64,000 nt of DNA from Planctomycetota bacterium (GTDB lineage: Bacteria > Planctomycetota > Phycisphaerae > Phycisphaerales > SM1A02): NCBI GenBank assembly GCA_016872915.1, contig VGYQ01000003.1:1-64000 (forward strand), given 5' to 3'. Positions 59,045 through 64,000 of this stretch are shown here, in pieces. A program made the translations under genes and the position numbers. The first letter of the stretch is position 1, and each line of letters opens with the position of its first letter. The notes under the pieces were generated by a model. It made no database searches. It saw only the letters and a list, made by a program, of their open reading frames with translations, and was not told where the DNA came from.

Positions 59045-60487
59045 ATGGAACTCACTTACACCCAAACGGACCGTGAACGCACATTTCTCGCAAACGTGGA
59101 GGACGGCCGCCACGAGCGCAACATCATCAACGGACTTGCGCCGTTCCTGGAAACGAACGTCCCGGAAGATATGAAGGGGCTCTACACGGGCGAGGAACTC
59201 GTTCAGCTCCGAGTCCTGAAGGGTGGCGAGCGCGATGTCGAGAAGCGCATGCCCGTCAAGATCACGCGGCATTACTTCGATCTTGCGAAGCAGAGCGCAC
59301 CGATTCGCCGGCTTGTGAAGGCGGATCCATCCGAAACCTACGACTTGGCTGGTTCCGAGGATCCTGGTTTTCAGATGGACTACAGCCCAGTGGAGGGCAT
59401 GCTGCACAAGTACGAGATGGGACTGCTGTATGTGGTGTCCACGTGCTCAGCGCACTGCCGATTCTGTTACCGCGAAGAGCTGATCGCGCGCAAGGAAGTG
59501 AAGCGCCAGGACGGCACCGTCGCGAAGAAGGGGCTGGCGAACATTCCCGAAGTCATCAGCTATATCAACCAATTCAACAAGGCCGTGCGAGACAACGGCG
59601 GTCGCCATCCAGTCTGTGGGCGTGAAAAGCTCCGAGAAATCCTGATGTCGGGTGGTGATCCGATGGTGCTCAACAATTCCAAGATCGCCGCGTGGCTTGG
59701 TGCCCTCGCGGAGGCGGGGATCGAGTCCATCCGCATCGGCACCAAGGAGATGGCGTTCTATCCCGAGCGCTTCGATGACGCCTTCTGTGCGATGCTCGAT
59801 CGATTCCACGAGATGTACCCGGAAGTTGGCCTGCACATCGTTGTGCACTTTGAGCATCCCGATGAGTTCCTTGCGAAGGATCCCGAAGGGCACTACCTGC
59901 GCAACGGGCAGGGATTCCTGCAGTGGGTTCCGGCGACGGGCGCTGCGATGCGCCGCCTGAACAAGCGCGGTTGGCTGAGTGTGGAGAATCAGACGCCGAT
60001 CATCAAGGGCATCAACGATGATGCCGATGCGCTGCGCATTCTGCAGCGTGAATTCAAGCGTGCAGGCGGCGAGAACCATTACTTCTTCTGCGGGCGAGAC
60101 ATTGTTGCGTATCGAGCCTTCAACGTGCCGATCGAGCGCGCATGGCATTTGCTGAATGAGTCGCAGAAGGGGCTCTCGGGCGTGGAGAATCACGCCAGAC
60201 TCTCGATCACGCATTACAAGGGCAAGACCGAAGTCAATGCGGTCACGAGCGAGCCGATCCCGGGTCTGAAGGGGAGCGAGAATGGTGTGGTCATCTTCAA
60301 GATCCTTCGCAACCAGGGTCTTGCCGCCGATCGCGGCAAGGTGTGCATCGTGGGACGCAATCCAAACGCGCTCTGGTTCGATGGCTACAACGACCGTGTG
60401 CTCTTCGACGAGGCGGGTCTGTATGACTACTCGCGCGTGAAGAGCGCCCGCATCACGCACGCAGCCCCGCCGCCCGTCTGCCGATGA
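59045..60487 (+). CDS. Radical SAM amino acid 2,3-aminomutase family protein (divergent KamA)
   Basis: The start was chosen at 59045 (MELTYTQTDR), 14 nt after a repeat; 480 residues. The SAM/4Fe-4S cluster motif is C134-x3-C138-x2-C141 (CSAHCRFCYRE), with R143 in the place of the carboxylate-binding Arg of lysine 2,3-aminomutase. From MSGGDPMVL onward the family order is retained. Around the PLP site the classical PGGGGK is replaced by HYKGKTEV (K392, K394). By-eye alignment puts R351 (CGRDIV) where lysine aminomutase has its first epsilon-amino-binding Asp, and a non-acidic residue at the second. So lysine is an unlikely substrate; a dicarboxylic amino acid fits better. Confidence 0.82.
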   Translation: MELTYTQTDRERTFLANVEDGRHERNIINGLAPFLETNVPEDMKGLYTGEELVQLRVLKGGERDVEKRMPVKITRHYFDLAKQSAPIRRLVKADPSETYDLAGSEDPGFQMDYSPVEGMLHKYEMGLLYVVSTCSAHCRFCYREELIARKEVKRQDGTVAKKGLANIPEVISYINQFNKAVRDNGGRHPVCGREKLREILMSGGDPMVLNNSKIAAWLGALAEAGIESIRIGTKEMAFYPERFDDAFCAMLDRFHEMYPEVGLHIVVHFEHPDEFLAKDPEGHYLRNGQGFLQWVPATGAAMRRLNKRGWLSVENQTPIIKGINDDADALRILQREFKRAGGENHYFFCGRDIVAYRAFNVPIERAWHLLNESQKGLSGVENHARLSITHYKGKTEVNAVTSEPIPGLKGSENGVVIFKILRNQGLAADRGKVCIVGRNPNALWFDGYNDRVLFDEAGLYDYSRVKSARITHAAPPPVCR

Positions 60488-61194
60488 TCGACAAGCGTGT
60501 GGCGGGCCCAGCGGCCGCCGTGGCGGATATCCACGATGGCGCCACCGTCATGATTGGCGGCTTTGGCGAAGCGGGAAGTCCCATTGAACTGATTCACGCG
60601 CTGATTGACCAAGGTGCGAAACGCCTGACGGTTGTCAGCAACAACACGGGCAGCGGCGAGGTTGGACTTGCGGCACTGCTGAAGGCGGGGCGTGTGCGCA
60701 AGGTCATCTGCTCCTTTCCGCGCACAGCAAACTCGACCGTCTTCCCCGATCTCTACCGCCGCGGCGAAGTGGAACTCGAACTTGTTCCGCAGGGCACCCT
60801 CGCTGAACGCATTCGTGCAGGCGGCGCTGGAATTCCCGCATTTTTTACGCCAACAGCCGTCGGTACGCCGCTCGCGCAAGGCAAGGAACACCGTCTCTTC
60901 GGGGACACCGAGTGCGTGCTTGAGTACGGCATCCGCGCCGACTTCACGCTCATCAAAGGCCGATGCGCCGACACGCATGGCAATGTGCTCTACCACCGGA
61001 CTGCTCGCAACTTCGCGCCGCCGATGGCGACCGCCGCCGGTGTCACCATCGTGCAGGTCTCGGAAGTGGTGGATGCCGGGCAACTCGACGCCGAGGCGAT
61101 CGTCACGCCTGGAATCTTCGTGGACCGCATCGTTCATGTGCCGTCGCCGCAGCAGGAGTCCGCGTTGATCGCTGCAGGAGCTCGTTACCCATGA
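60484..61194 (+). CDS. 3-oxoacid/3-oxoadipate CoA-transferase subunit A (PcaI-like)
   Basis: A protein of 236 residues overlapping the aminomutase gene by 4 nt (ATGA). Family I CoA-transferase alpha subunit: ATVMIGGFGEAGSPIELIHAL near residue 25, VVSNNTGSGEVGLAALLKAGRVRKVICSFPR, ELELVPQGTLAERIRAGGAGIPAFFTPTAVGT, then HGNVLYHRTARNFAPPMA and IVTPGIFVDRIVHVP. The ICSFPR and ELVPQGxLAERIRAGGAGIPAFFTP sequences are close to PcaI/ScoA-type 3-oxoadipate or acetoacetate transferases. It moves CoA from succinyl-CoA (or acetyl-CoA) to a 3-oxoacid. PcaI-like rather than AtoD-like is by eye. Confidence 0.88.
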   Translation: MIDKRVAGPAAAVADIHDGATVMIGGFGEAGSPIELIHALIDQGAKRLTVVSNNTGSGEVGLAALLKAGRVRKVICSFPRTANSTVFPDLYRRGEVELELVPQGTLAERIRAGGAGIPAFFTPTAVGTPLAQGKEHRLFGDTECVLEYGIRADFTLIKGRCADTHGNVLYHRTARNFAPPMATAAGVTIVQVSEVVDAGQLDAEAIVTPGIFVDRIVHVPSPQQESALIAAGARYP

Positions 61195-61880
61195 CGCCAC
61201 CCGCGACCGACGAATCCGCCGCGATTGGATGGAGCCGCGACGACATCGCGCGCCGACTCGCGCAGGACATTCCGCATGGCTCGTATGTCAACCTTGGCAT
61301 TGGCATTCCCGAACTCGTGGCGCGTTTCGTTCCTGAGGGACGCACGCTCATCTATCACACGGAGAATGGACTGCTTGGCATGGGTCCATCGCCTGCGGCG
61401 GGCGCTGGCGATCCCGAACTCATCAACGCAGGCAAGCGTCAGGTCACCATGATGCCGGGCGCGGCATTCTTTGACCAGTCCACCAGCTTCGCGATGATTC
61501 GCGGCGGCCATCTGGACCTCAGCGTGCTCGGTGCGCTGCAAGTTTCGCAGACCGGCGACCTTGCCAATTGGTCGACAGGCGAGGCCGATGCGATTCCTGC
61601 GGTGGGTGGCGCCATGGACCTCGTGGCTGGCGTTCGGCGCGTCTTTGTCATCACGCAGCACTGCACAAAAGAGGGCGAGATGAAACTGGTGGGGGAGTGC
61701 ACCTACCCTTTGACCGGGCGAGCCGTTGTGGACCGCGTCTACACCGACCTCGCGGTGATCGACATTACGGCCGATGGCTTCCGTGTGGTGGAGCTCGCGC
61801 CAGGTGTCGGATTCGATTTCGTGCAGGAGCGCACGGGCGCGACGCTCCTGCCGCCGATCCAGCGCACCGCCGCCGTGTAA
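61191..61880 (+). CDS. 3-oxoacid/3-oxoadipate CoA-transferase subunit B (PcaJ-like)
   Basis: The frame is open from 60963; the ATG at 61191, overlapping subunit A by 4 nt, gives 229 residues. The beta-subunit motif YVNLGIGIPELVARFVPEG is near residue 32, and the catalytic Glu is E58 in the HTENGLLGMG loop (the ENGxxGMG motif); MMPGAAFFDQSTSFAMIRGGHLDLSVLGALQVS follows. The Glu forms the covalent CoA ester intermediate. With subunit A it should activate a 3-oxoacid produced by the preceding enzymes. Confidence 0.9.
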   Translation: MTPPATDESAAIGWSRDDIARRLAQDIPHGSYVNLGIGIPELVARFVPEGRTLIYHTENGLLGMGPSPAAGAGDPELINAGKRQVTMMPGAAFFDQSTSFAMIRGGHLDLSVLGALQVSQTGDLANWSTGEADAIPAVGGAMDLVAGVRRVFVITQHCTKEGEMKLVGECTYPLTGRAVVDRVYTDLAVIDITADGFRVVELAPGVGFDFVQERTGATLLPPIQRTAAV

Positions 61881-61920: not shown

Positions 61921-63243
61921 ATGACCACCGAACAAGCCACCAACCGAAGCGAGAGTCTTTTTGCGCGTGCGAGGAAGGTGCTCGCAGGCGGAGTCAGCCG
62001 CAATACGGTTCTGCGCGGACCACATCCTCCATACGCCGACTACGGACAGGGCTGCCGCATCACCGATCTCGACGGCATTTCGCGCATTGACTTCTCGAAC
62101 AACATGGCATCGCTGATCCACGGACATGCGTTCCGACCGATCAATGAGGCGGTGACGTCACAGTTGCAGCGGGGCTCGGCATTCATGATGGCAACCGAAG
62201 CAGAGGTGCGCTACGCCGAGCATCTCGCCAGTCGCAGCGCTGCGTTCGAGCGGCTGCGATTCGTCAACTCTGGCACCGAGGCGCTGATGGCCGCGCTGAA
62301 GGCGGCGCGTGCGTTCACCAACCGTGCCAAGGTCGCGAAGGTCGAAGGCGCGTACCACGGCGGCTACGACTACGCCGAGGTCAGTCAAGAGCCCAAGCCG
62401 GAGAATTGGGGCAGCATCGATCATCCCAACAGCGTGCCGTTGACGCATGGATCGCCGCAGTCGGCGCTGCAAGACGTGCTCATCATGCCCGCGAACGACG
62501 TGGACCGCGCGATCGCGATTCTCGATGCGCACCGCAGTGAAGTGGCGTGTGTGCTGCTCGATCTGATGCCGCACCGCGCGGGTTTGCGCGCTGCGGATCC
62601 CGCGTTTGTTGCCGCGATTCGCGAGTGGACCGCACGGCACGGGGCACTGCTGGTGCTCGATGAGGTGATCACCTTCCGCACGGAAGTCGGTGGGATGCAA
62701 CAGCGGTACGGGCTGAAGGCGGATCTCACCGCGCTTGGCAAGATCATCGGAGGCGGATTCCCCGTTGGTGCGCTCGCAGGGCGCGCCGATGTGATGGATG
62801 TGATGAACCCGCAGGCGAGCAAGCTGCTCTATCCGCTTTCAGGAACGTTCTCGGCGAACCCTGTCACGATGACCGCCGGGCTCGCGGCAATGCAGCACTA
62901 CGACGCCGCAGCAGTTGCAAGACTGAACGCACTCGCGGAGCGCGCGATGCACGGCATTCGTGAGGCGATCGGTCGCACCAATGCGCAGGCATGCGTCACA
63001 GGAACGGGATCGATGTTCCGTGTGCACATGAAGCCAACGGCACCGCTTGACTATCGCCAGCAGTTCCTCAGCGCGGAAGAATCGAAGCGGCTGAAGGTGC
63101 TGCTTGAGCATCTCTTCCAAGAGGGATTCCTGATGATCAATACCTGTTCGGCGACGCTGTCGACGCCGATGACCGAGGTGGAGATCGATGCGCTCGTGGA
63201 CGCAGTCGAGGGCGGACTCCGCCGCATCGCCTCAATGAACTGA
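61921..63243 (+). CDS. Class III (HemL-like) PLP aminotransferase, probable beta-amino acid transaminase
   Basis: The frame opens at 61774; the ATG at 61921 follows a GGAG ribosome binding site and gives 440 residues. Fold type I class III traits: RVTDLDGISRIDFSNNMASLIHGHA-like start, RFVNSGTEALMAALKAARAFT near residue 115, LLVLDEVITFRTEVGG near 240, and the PLP lysine K274 in LTALGKIIGGGFPVGALAG. HemL and beta-phenylalanine aminotransferases share this LGKxIGGGFPVGA sequence. In this operon a beta-amino acid to beta-keto acid transamination is the natural step. HemL itself is less likely because the context is not heme synthesis. Confidence 0.82.
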   Translation: MTTEQATNRSESLFARARKVLAGGVSRNTVLRGPHPPYADYGQGCRITDLDGISRIDFSNNMASLIHGHAFRPINEAVTSQLQRGSAFMMATEAEVRYAEHLASRSAAFERLRFVNSGTEALMAALKAARAFTNRAKVAKVEGAYHGGYDYAEVSQEPKPENWGSIDHPNSVPLTHGSPQSALQDVLIMPANDVDRAIAILDAHRSEVACVLLDLMPHRAGLRAADPAFVAAIREWTARHGALLVLDEVITFRTEVGGMQQRYGLKADLTALGKIIGGGFPVGALAGRADVMDVMNPQASKLLYPLSGTFSANPVTMTAGLAAMQHYDAAAVARLNALAERAMHGIREAIGRTNAQACVTGTGSMFRVHMKPTAPLDYRQQFLSAEESKRLKVLLEHLFQEGFLMINTCSATLSTPMTEVEIDALVDAVEGGLRRIASMN

Positions 63244-63272: not shown

Positions 63273-64000
63273 TCACTTTCGCTCCAAGAGCAGCGCGAGA
63301 CCCTGCCCAACACCCACGCACAGTGCCGCAACGCCGCGGTCCGCGCCGCGCCGCTTCATCTCATGCAGAAGTGTTGTCGCCAGCCGTGCTCCGCTCGCGC
63401 CGAGTGGATGCCCAATCGCGATCGCGCCGCCATTCACATTCACGCGTGCCGGGTCAAGGGCAAGTTCCCGCACGCATGCAACCGCTTGGGCGGCGAACGC
63501 CTCATTGATCTCGTAGAGATCCACCGACGCTGCGGCAACGCCCGTGCGCTCGAGCAGCGTTCGGATGGCGGGTACGGGACCGATGCCCATCTGCGCTGGG
63601 TCCACGCCGACCGCGCATCCGCGCCCGACGAAGCCAAGCGGCGTCAATCCCAACTTCGCCGCCTTCGCCGCATCCATCAGCAGCAGCGCCGCCGCGCCAT
63701 CGTTCACGCCCGATGAGTTGCCGGCAGTGACGGTGCCGTCCTCCGCCTTGGTGAACGCGGGCTTCAGCGCCGCCAGTTTCTCAAGCGTGGTGTCGGCGCG
63801 CGGGTGCTCATCGGTGTCGAAGACCAGCGGCGGGCGCTTGCCCTGCGGAATCTCCACGGGCACGATCTCATCACGGAACCGTCCCGCAGCATGGGCAGCG
63901 GCCCAGCGCTGCTGACTCTCGAGCGCGAATCGATCCTGATCGCCGCGGCTCACATGGAACGCACGCGCGACATTCTCCGCCGTTTCGCCCATCGAGAATG
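63273..64000 (-). CDS. Acetyl-CoA acetyltransferase/3-oxoadipyl-CoA thiolase, C-terminal part
   Basis: Partial: the 5' part and the first nucleophilic Cys lie beyond the right edge of the window. Visible residues include [56 protein letters not shown], the general base His in [10 protein letters not shown] and the second Cys in ALCVGVGQG. The [24 protein letters not shown] and GIGPVPA sequences are close to PcaF-type 3-oxoadipyl-CoA thiolases, but acetyl-CoA acetyltransferase cannot be excluded. It converges on the aminotransferase gene with a 29-bp gap. Confidence 0.85.

Follow-up and report, generated by a model that had tools for sequence, protein, structure and literature searches.

The window analysed here, a stretch of 64,000 nucleotides from a planctomycete genome, encodes near its end a KamA-like radical SAM aminomutase of 480 amino acids (P0001; 59045-60487, + strand), which we propose, with a probability of roughly 55%, to be an L-2-aminoadipate 2,3-aminomutase. 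From its product, 3-aminoadipate, the enzymes encoded next to it would form 3-oxoadipate, 3-oxoadipyl-CoA and finally succinyl-CoA and acetyl-CoA, in what would be a new branch of lysine catabolism. More generally, P0001 is likely to be a radical SAM aminomutase supplying a catabolic pathway that passes through a 3-oxo acid. As part of the 2-aminoadipate reading we propose that it forms a clade of 2,3-aminomutases of its own, radical SAM enzymes that depend on PLP. The chances are about even that it represents the first 2-aminoadipate 2,3-aminomutase, acting in an undescribed lysine branch that arose on two or more occasions and recruited a CoA-transferase of another subfamily each time. In the open-licence PMC literature no description of an enzyme or pathway of this kind came up; the terms 3-aminoadipate or beta-aminoadipate turned up in a meteorite paper and, within a cited title, in the available part of PMC9854754.

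From the operon, the enzyme families and the invariant residues described below we infer the substrate, every reaction and its direction as follows. 2-Aminoadipate would come from lysine via piperideine-6-carboxylate dehydrogenase. The chemistry of P0001 would be that of lysine 2,3-aminomutase (LAM): the cluster would cleave SAM to the 5'-deoxyadenosyl radical, which would take a hydrogen from C3 of the substrate, bound as aldimine of the PLP freed from K394, and the amino group would move from C2 to C3, yielding 3-aminoadipate. R143 would hold the alpha-carboxylate and R351, together with T389 and H390, the distal carboxylate, replacing the two Asp for the ammonium group of lysine. The transaminase would then convert 3-aminoadipate to 3-oxoadipate, the CoA-transferase 3-oxoadipate to 3-oxoadipyl-CoA and the thiolase 3-oxoadipyl-CoA to succinyl-CoA and acetyl-CoA.

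The known catabolism of lysine via 2-aminoadipate (piperideine-6-carboxylate dehydrogenase, then the 2-oxoadipate route by HglS or dehydrogenase) shares 2-aminoadipate with the proposed branch, which differs in that the exit would be migration of the amino group to C3 rather than transamination at C2. If the proposal is true, 2-aminoadipate has another exit besides transamination to 2-oxoadipate, amino acid and aromatic catabolism are linked at 3-oxoadipate, the short list of substrates of radical SAM aminomutases grows by one, and a name can be given to proteins that are at present annotated as hypothetical, such as the one in Mesorhizobium. 3-Oxoadipate and 3-aminoadipate are also useful for making C6 diacids from lysine, and hypothetical steps of this sort have figured in route proposals for adipic acid. 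According to the accessible portion of PMC7241714, no enzymes are known that deaminate 2-aminoadipic acid for the C6 diacid aim; an aminomutase followed by a transaminase would be another way round the missing deamination.

No Pfam model matched P0001 at an E-value of 0.001, and the protein scored 96.9 bits, under the cut-off of 199.2, against TIGR00238, the model for KamA-like radical SAM proteins at large. The scores with the narrower NCBIfam models were 87.7 bits for arginine aminomutase (cut-off 600), 83.1 bits for AblA-like proteins (cut-off 396), 80.3 bits for EpmB (cut-off 369), 78.4 bits for glutamate 2,3-aminomutase (TIGR04368; cut-off 650) and 74.9 bits for lysine 2,3-aminomutase (TIGR03820; cut-off 525.4). 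Judged by these models, P0001 belongs neither to the lysine nor to the glutamate 2,3-aminomutases. The only solved relative found by sequence at an E-value of 0.001 was lysine 2,3-aminomutase (2a5h), which also came top in a fold search (Z 24.6 over 300 residues, rmsd 3.4; runner-up Z 12.6) with a structure model that was built from 22 sequences (mean pLDDT 69, pTM 0.74) and in which residues 350-355, the segment of Arg351, were poorly modelled (pLDDT below 50). With LAM (KamA/AblA) P0001 shares the fold, the radical SAM core, the cluster motif CxxxCxxC (C134-C138-C141; 59444-59467, + strand), the position of the PLP lysine and an arginine, R143 (59471-59473, + strand), at the position of the LAM Arg which we take to bind the alpha-carboxylate of the substrate. 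It differs from LAM in having R351 and T389 in place of the two ammonium-binding Asp and in a loop that is two residues shorter, in agreement with an earlier note on this DNA, which had reported the PGGGGK loop to be lacking.

In 2a5h Asp293 and Asp330 bind lysine and Lys337 binds PLP. When ten orthologues were aligned by profile with eleven Asp-type KamA proteins, G350-R351-D352 fell without a gap on C-D-P of the motif YQCDP, the Asp of which is residue 293 in 2a5h numbering (Asp330 and Lys337 were read from the same numbering). Arg351 (60095-60097, + strand) thus lies on Asp293, where a by-eye alignment in the earlier note had placed it. A sister clade that likewise carries Arg opposite Asp293 (FQCRP or FQGRP) aligned gap-free with P0001 there and through SITHYKGK, and the MSH of this clade aligned with the region of the second Asp; via the sister clade T389 (60209-60211) falls on Asp330, as the note had expected of a hydrophobic or Thr residue of SITHYKGK, and K394 on the PLP lysine. 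A direct MAFFT alignment put a gap, not T389, opposite Asp330, and neither alignment puts an acid there. Next to R351 stands D352 (60098-60100, + strand), and a shift by one residue, in a segment where the predicted model is weak, would give an Asp at position 293. The one-residue gap that this shift needs, suggested by the resemblance of C-D to R-D, was rejected on the gap-free alignments of P0001 with the Asp-type proteins and with the sister clade.

All of R143, R351, D352, T389, H390 (60212-60214; with T389 60209-60214, + strand) and K394 (60224-60226, + strand), and likewise the three cysteines of the cluster motif, were kept in 92 of 92 aligned rows of close homologues, a set in which the window protein and one other gene each appear twice, two sequences contain internal stops and a further one has unread residues. 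K392 (60218-60220, + strand) was kept in 90 of these rows and is Leu or Arg in the other two, for which reason it was rejected as PLP lysine. Since K394 is invariant (a Lys was also found there in 44 of 44 rows of the wider family), it is K394 that is probably the PLP lysine; of the two candidates named before, K392 or K394, only the latter stood.

Neither the two Asp of LAM nor the Lys and Asn which we take to be characteristic of glutamate 2,3-aminomutase at these positions are present in P0001, which has Arg and Thr. As in glutamate 2,3-aminomutase (TIGR04368), a basic residue replaces the first Asp and an acidic side chain of the substrate is to be expected; the difference is that in P0001 the residue is Arg rather than Lys and that the gene sits in a catabolic operon. 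A candidate glutamate 2,3-aminomutase is IdnL4 from incednine biosynthesis, whose activity has not yet been seen in vitro according to the available text of PMC11284099.

In a tree of 44 KamA-like rows labelled by the first Asp position, as the earlier note had suggested (L028, L141 and L224, which had no frame under the filter, and L136 were left out), the Asp293 column contained Asp in 14 LAM-like rows, Lys in two glutamate-aminomutase-like rows and Arg in 28 rows of three kinds. Arg351 is therefore characteristic of the family rather than a peculiarity of this one protein. The Arg-type rows did not form one clade; the middle group needs three changes and long branches meet in this tree, so the Arg may have had one or several origins. 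With the window proteins as queries, no CoA-transferase, transaminase or thiolase of this kind was found in 11 neighbourhoods (6-16 kb) of other Arg-type KamA proteins, which indicates that Arg alone does not mean 2-aminoadipate as substrate. A relative of P0001 with 47-50% identity in genome G419 likewise stands without the partner genes.

Several other members of the wider family deserve mention. Some proteins on rhizobial plasmids are annotated as lysine 2,3-aminomutase (L223, Rhizobium sp. C104 plasmid pRSpC104f, 4980-6032; hits H28, H31-H33, H35 and H37); the one of them that was read, the L223 protein, which forms a very long branch in the 44-row tree, is probably misnamed because it has Arg in the Asp293 column, and near its gene lie a piece of a class III transaminase gene and a gene for an RpiR regulator. 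A second Arg-type clade (L016, L018, L029, L122, L123 and L225; 100/100 support) is characterized by VERDTG and MSAxPGK. Two planctomycete proteins (L130 and L131) come near glutamate 2,3-aminomutase (570.1 and 567.5 bits, cut-off 650); Lys replaces the first Asp in both, and inspection by eye showed no acidic residue in place of the second.

The aminomutase gene is followed on the same strand by the genes for 3-oxoacid CoA-transferase subunit A (60484-61194, + strand; TIGR02429 322.6 bits, cut-off 128.5), the start of which overlaps the aminomutase stop, 3-oxoacid CoA-transferase subunit B (61191-61880, + strand; TIGR02428 294.3 bits, cut-off 243.55), for which the ATG overlapping the subunit A stop was chosen as start, and a class III transaminase of the beta-transaminase type (61921-63243, + strand, start also chosen), the ends overlapping or close. 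A convergent gene (63273-64000, - strand) encodes the C-terminal part of a 3-oxoadipyl-CoA-type thiolase; the full gene (401 amino acids) extends beyond the window end. At loci with enough DNA the same-strand downstream genes were found without exception (subunit A in 85/85, subunit B in 80/80, transaminase in 74/74), and a facing thiolase lay within 5 kb in 53 of 70 operons and was not found within that distance in the other 17. These counts are from 90 loci, representing 89 distinct genes, which partly overlap the 294-genome set below and are not all independent.

Among 294 genomes of the phylum ten carry P0001, one being the window genome itself and nine having the protein at 67 to 77% identity; six carriers are among 41 close relatives. 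Within the phylum of G324 matches at 1e-100 were obtained in 3 of 288 genomes, with an identity of no more than 50% in one case. Of 539 stretches matched in a scan of the collection 410 encode a relative, and 72 of the best 80 of these 410 were labelled planctomycetes or Phycisphaer-. Of the 79 loci whose upstream DNA reaches 1.2 kb or more, 42 have a divergent gene for a MurR/RpiR-family regulator upstream of the aminomutase (for example L034, 10295-11119); no RpiR-type regulator was found in the window. In three loci labelled Spartobacteria or Chthoniobacterales (L075, 6252-7487; L088, 6370-7602; L119) another thiolase gene precedes that of the aminomutase (PRK06289 355.9 and 382.4 bits in L075 and L088, cut-off 375; by eye in L119), and L075 has a piece of a PcaF-type thiolase about 7.5 kb downstream.

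The cluster thiolase is, by the best-fitting family models, probably of the 3-oxoadipyl-CoA (PcaF/PaaJ) type. 3-Oxoadipyl-CoA is the substrate of both PcaF and PaaJ. The whole gene, read in L031, scored 557.7 bits with NF006551 (cut-off 605) and 556.4 bits with TIGR02430 (cut-off 597), against 472.2 bits with the general thiolase model and 423 or less with the acetyl-CoA and BktB models; although the 3-oxoadipyl-CoA models fit best, the scores are 40-50 bits under the curated cut-offs and other substrates are possible. A second cluster thiolase reached 577.8 bits with the 3-oxoadipyl-CoA thiolase model. The cluster thiolase shares 57% identity with the PcaF encoded in the Chelatococcus pca operon and 64.6% with a thiolase from a phenylacetate cluster of the non-carrier G319, in which PaaA and PaaC score over cut-off and genes resembling PaaF, PaaG and PaaH are also present, and among the best 25 of 1147 plasmid matches 19 were annotated as pcaF or beta-ketoadipyl CoA thiolase, four as 'thiolase family protein' and two not at all. 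Since relatives without the operon also have such enzymes (561.1 bits in G315 and 585.3 bits in G319 with the same model), PcaF-type thiolases are not confined to carriers. The acetyl-CoA-type thiolase from carrier G303 shows 42% identity to the cluster thiolase and did not match the 3-oxoadipyl models at 1e-100; other carrier genomes have further high-scoring thiolases.

The planctomycete CoA-transferase could be placed only in the broad pcaI/scoA family; those of its solved relatives that have a name act on 3-ketoacids, acetoacetate or acetate. In Mesorhizobium sp. 113-3-3, plasmid MesoLj113b2 carries, in this order, a P0001 orthologue (64% identity, annotated 'hypothetical protein'), the ferredoxin FdxA, which would suit a radical SAM enzyme as electron donor, a transaminase (57%) and a CoA-transferase pair of a different subfamily, the subunit A of which shows 23% identity to ScoA (E 0.002) and has a frame that looks interrupted near its start. 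The nearest relative of its beta subunit in the PDB is glutaconate CoA-transferase, and the nearest plasmid relatives of the pair (77-83% identity) include pairs within pca operons, in Chelatococcus sp. CO-6 and Methylocella tundrae between pcaHG and pcaF. Because the Mesorhizobium pair resembles the pca pairs, another lineage appears to have combined these first two enzymes with a CoA-transferase of the kind that acts in 3-oxoadipate pathways. The likeness to the lower beta-ketoadipate pathway (PcaIJ or CatIJ, and PcaF) and to PaaJ of phenylacetate degradation is in the thiolase type and in the type of the Mesorhizobium CoA-transferase; the difference is that here 3-oxoadipate would come from an amino acid and not from an aromatic ring. 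BREX genes (pglX, pglZ and brxL) are located a few kb upstream of the Mesorhizobium operon (L215, 1-8104) on the plasmid.

The closest solved relative of the window transaminase is 6k8h from Sphaerobacter thermophilus (384.7 bits), which, in the part of PMC10589169 available, is described as active on several free beta-amino acids including beta-leucine and aromatic beta-amino acids, its R36 being proposed to bind the substrate carboxylate. The window transaminase has R27 at the place of R36, and at least 74 of the 75 transaminases aligned share this Arg.

A gene for L-piperidine-6-carboxylate dehydrogenase (736.2 bits, cut-off 730), an enzyme that makes 2-aminoadipate (available part of PMC9854754), adjoins the operon transaminase in genome G092, and the synteny with G196, read by eye, suggests that the operon was inserted beside the dehydrogenase; among 90 loci this is the sole one with such a gene close by. 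With a score of at least 560 bits the dehydrogenase was found in 10/10 carriers versus 107/284 non-carriers (Fisher p 8e-5, kinship not corrected) and over the cut-off in 9/10 versus 100/284, that of the window genome, at 724.8 bits, being just under it. In the close relatives it is nearly universal (at least 560 bits in 34 of 41, six of these 34 being carriers) and therefore does not discriminate there. The negatively charged distal group of the substrate, which the earlier note had suggested from the positive charge in the pocket, is supported by three pointers to a dicarboxylate, namely the dehydrogenase in these ten carriers, the PcaF/PaaJ-type thiolase and the Mesorhizobium CoA-transferase. 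The window genome and G095 also encode a member of the HglS family (2-oxoadipate route), so that the operon is not the sole possible exit from 2-aminoadipate there; none was found in the other eight of the ten carriers. Mutual exclusion of operon and HglS was not observed, both being present in these two genomes (G000 and G095). No enzymes leading from lysine to piperideine-6-carboxylate were recognised beside the operon, and 15 dehydrogenase neighbourhoods (13 carriers, two non-carriers) read by eye had no lysine-to-piperideine gene in common; a gene that by eye looked like saccharopine dehydrogenase in one non-carrier had no NCBIfam match at 1e-30.

The main rival of 2-aminoadipate as substrate is glutamate. 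As a glutamate 2,3-aminomutase P0001 would form beta-glutamate and the transaminase 3-oxoglutarate, which would be activated and cleaved, or would lose CO2 to yield acetoacetate and from it acetoacetyl-CoA. Arg351 would suit any distal carboxylate, Lys occupies the Asp293 column of the two glutamate-aminomutase-like planctomycete proteins, and the solved relatives of the window CoA-transferase would suit acetoacetate. We nevertheless consider glutamate unlikely, since the cluster thiolase is probably of the 3-oxoadipyl-CoA type, carrier G303 has a separate acetyl-CoA-type thiolase and other carriers have further high-scoring thiolases, the Mesorhizobium CoA-transferase is of the pca-operon kind and the TIGR04368 score is under the cut-off. 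Because R351 holds the place of Asp293 in the chain, the distal group should lie at about the distance of the lysine ammonium, and 2-aminoadipate, being of the same length as lysine, would fit better than glutamate, which is one carbon shorter; weightier than chain length are the types of thiolase and CoA-transferase, which favour 3-oxoadipate. A neutral amino acid such as leucine, converted via the beta-amino acid to a branched 3-oxo acid that undergoes thiolysis, with Arg351 in a structural role, is quite improbable: 6k8h does take beta-leucine and aromatic beta-amino acids (PMC10589169, part available), and downstream in L092 and L093 are genes that by eye look like those for a 2-oxo acid dehydrogenase complex, while L038 has a leucine/tryptophan-dehydrogenase-like gene near the operon, but the Arg in the distal pocket is invariant and the types of thiolase and Mesorhizobium CoA-transferase speak against it.

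Least probable of all is lysine itself, processed via beta-lysine by transamination, CoA activation and thiolysis, or in the known lysine fermentation with a HemL-like transaminase. A variant of that fermentation in Cloacamonas uses a KamA enzyme, a HemL-like transaminase, AtoDA and a thiolase (accessible portion of PMC3149608). In P0001, however, both ammonium-binding Asp positions are occupied by Arg and Thr and the score with the lysine model is under its cut-off; no gene for lysine 5,6-aminomutase or a cleavage enzyme was recognised within 4.5 kb by eye from short stretches, a weak test, and a genome search for lysine 5,6-aminomutase, which gave no match in 14 carriers but none in any control either, carries no weight. 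The pathway from 2-aminoadipate could also run in another order, with the CoA-transferase acting first to yield 3-aminoadipyl-CoA and the transaminase working on the thioester. To this order, too, we give a very slender chance, since pca-type CoA-transferases act on free 3-oxoadipate. The transaminase 6k8h works on free beta-amino acids (PMC10589169, as far as available), while Kat of Cloacamonas, a HemL-like transaminase, is active only on CoA thioesters (PMC3149608, in part).

Other CoA-transferase and catabolic genes were seen near dehydrogenases of the 2-aminoadipate-forming kind. On plasmid pTM2 of Tistrella mobilis (L216, 961-7391) a ScoA that is 66% identical to that of the window is encoded with ScoB near genes for a piperideine-6-carboxylate dehydrogenase (797.8 bits), a DUF1338 (HglS family) protein and an aminotransferase. 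Another CoA-transferase subunit B gene adjoins the 2-aminoadipate-forming dehydrogenase gene in L207 (5684-6427), L208 (5746 on) and L210 (8161 on), from the carriers G313 and G301 and the non-carrier G315 (TIGR02428 319.6 bits in L207, the others assigned by clustering). In two planctomycete genomes genes for BoxB and BoxC of the benzoyl-CoA pathway lie near such a dehydrogenase gene (L039, 15747-18876, over cut-off; L204, by eye).
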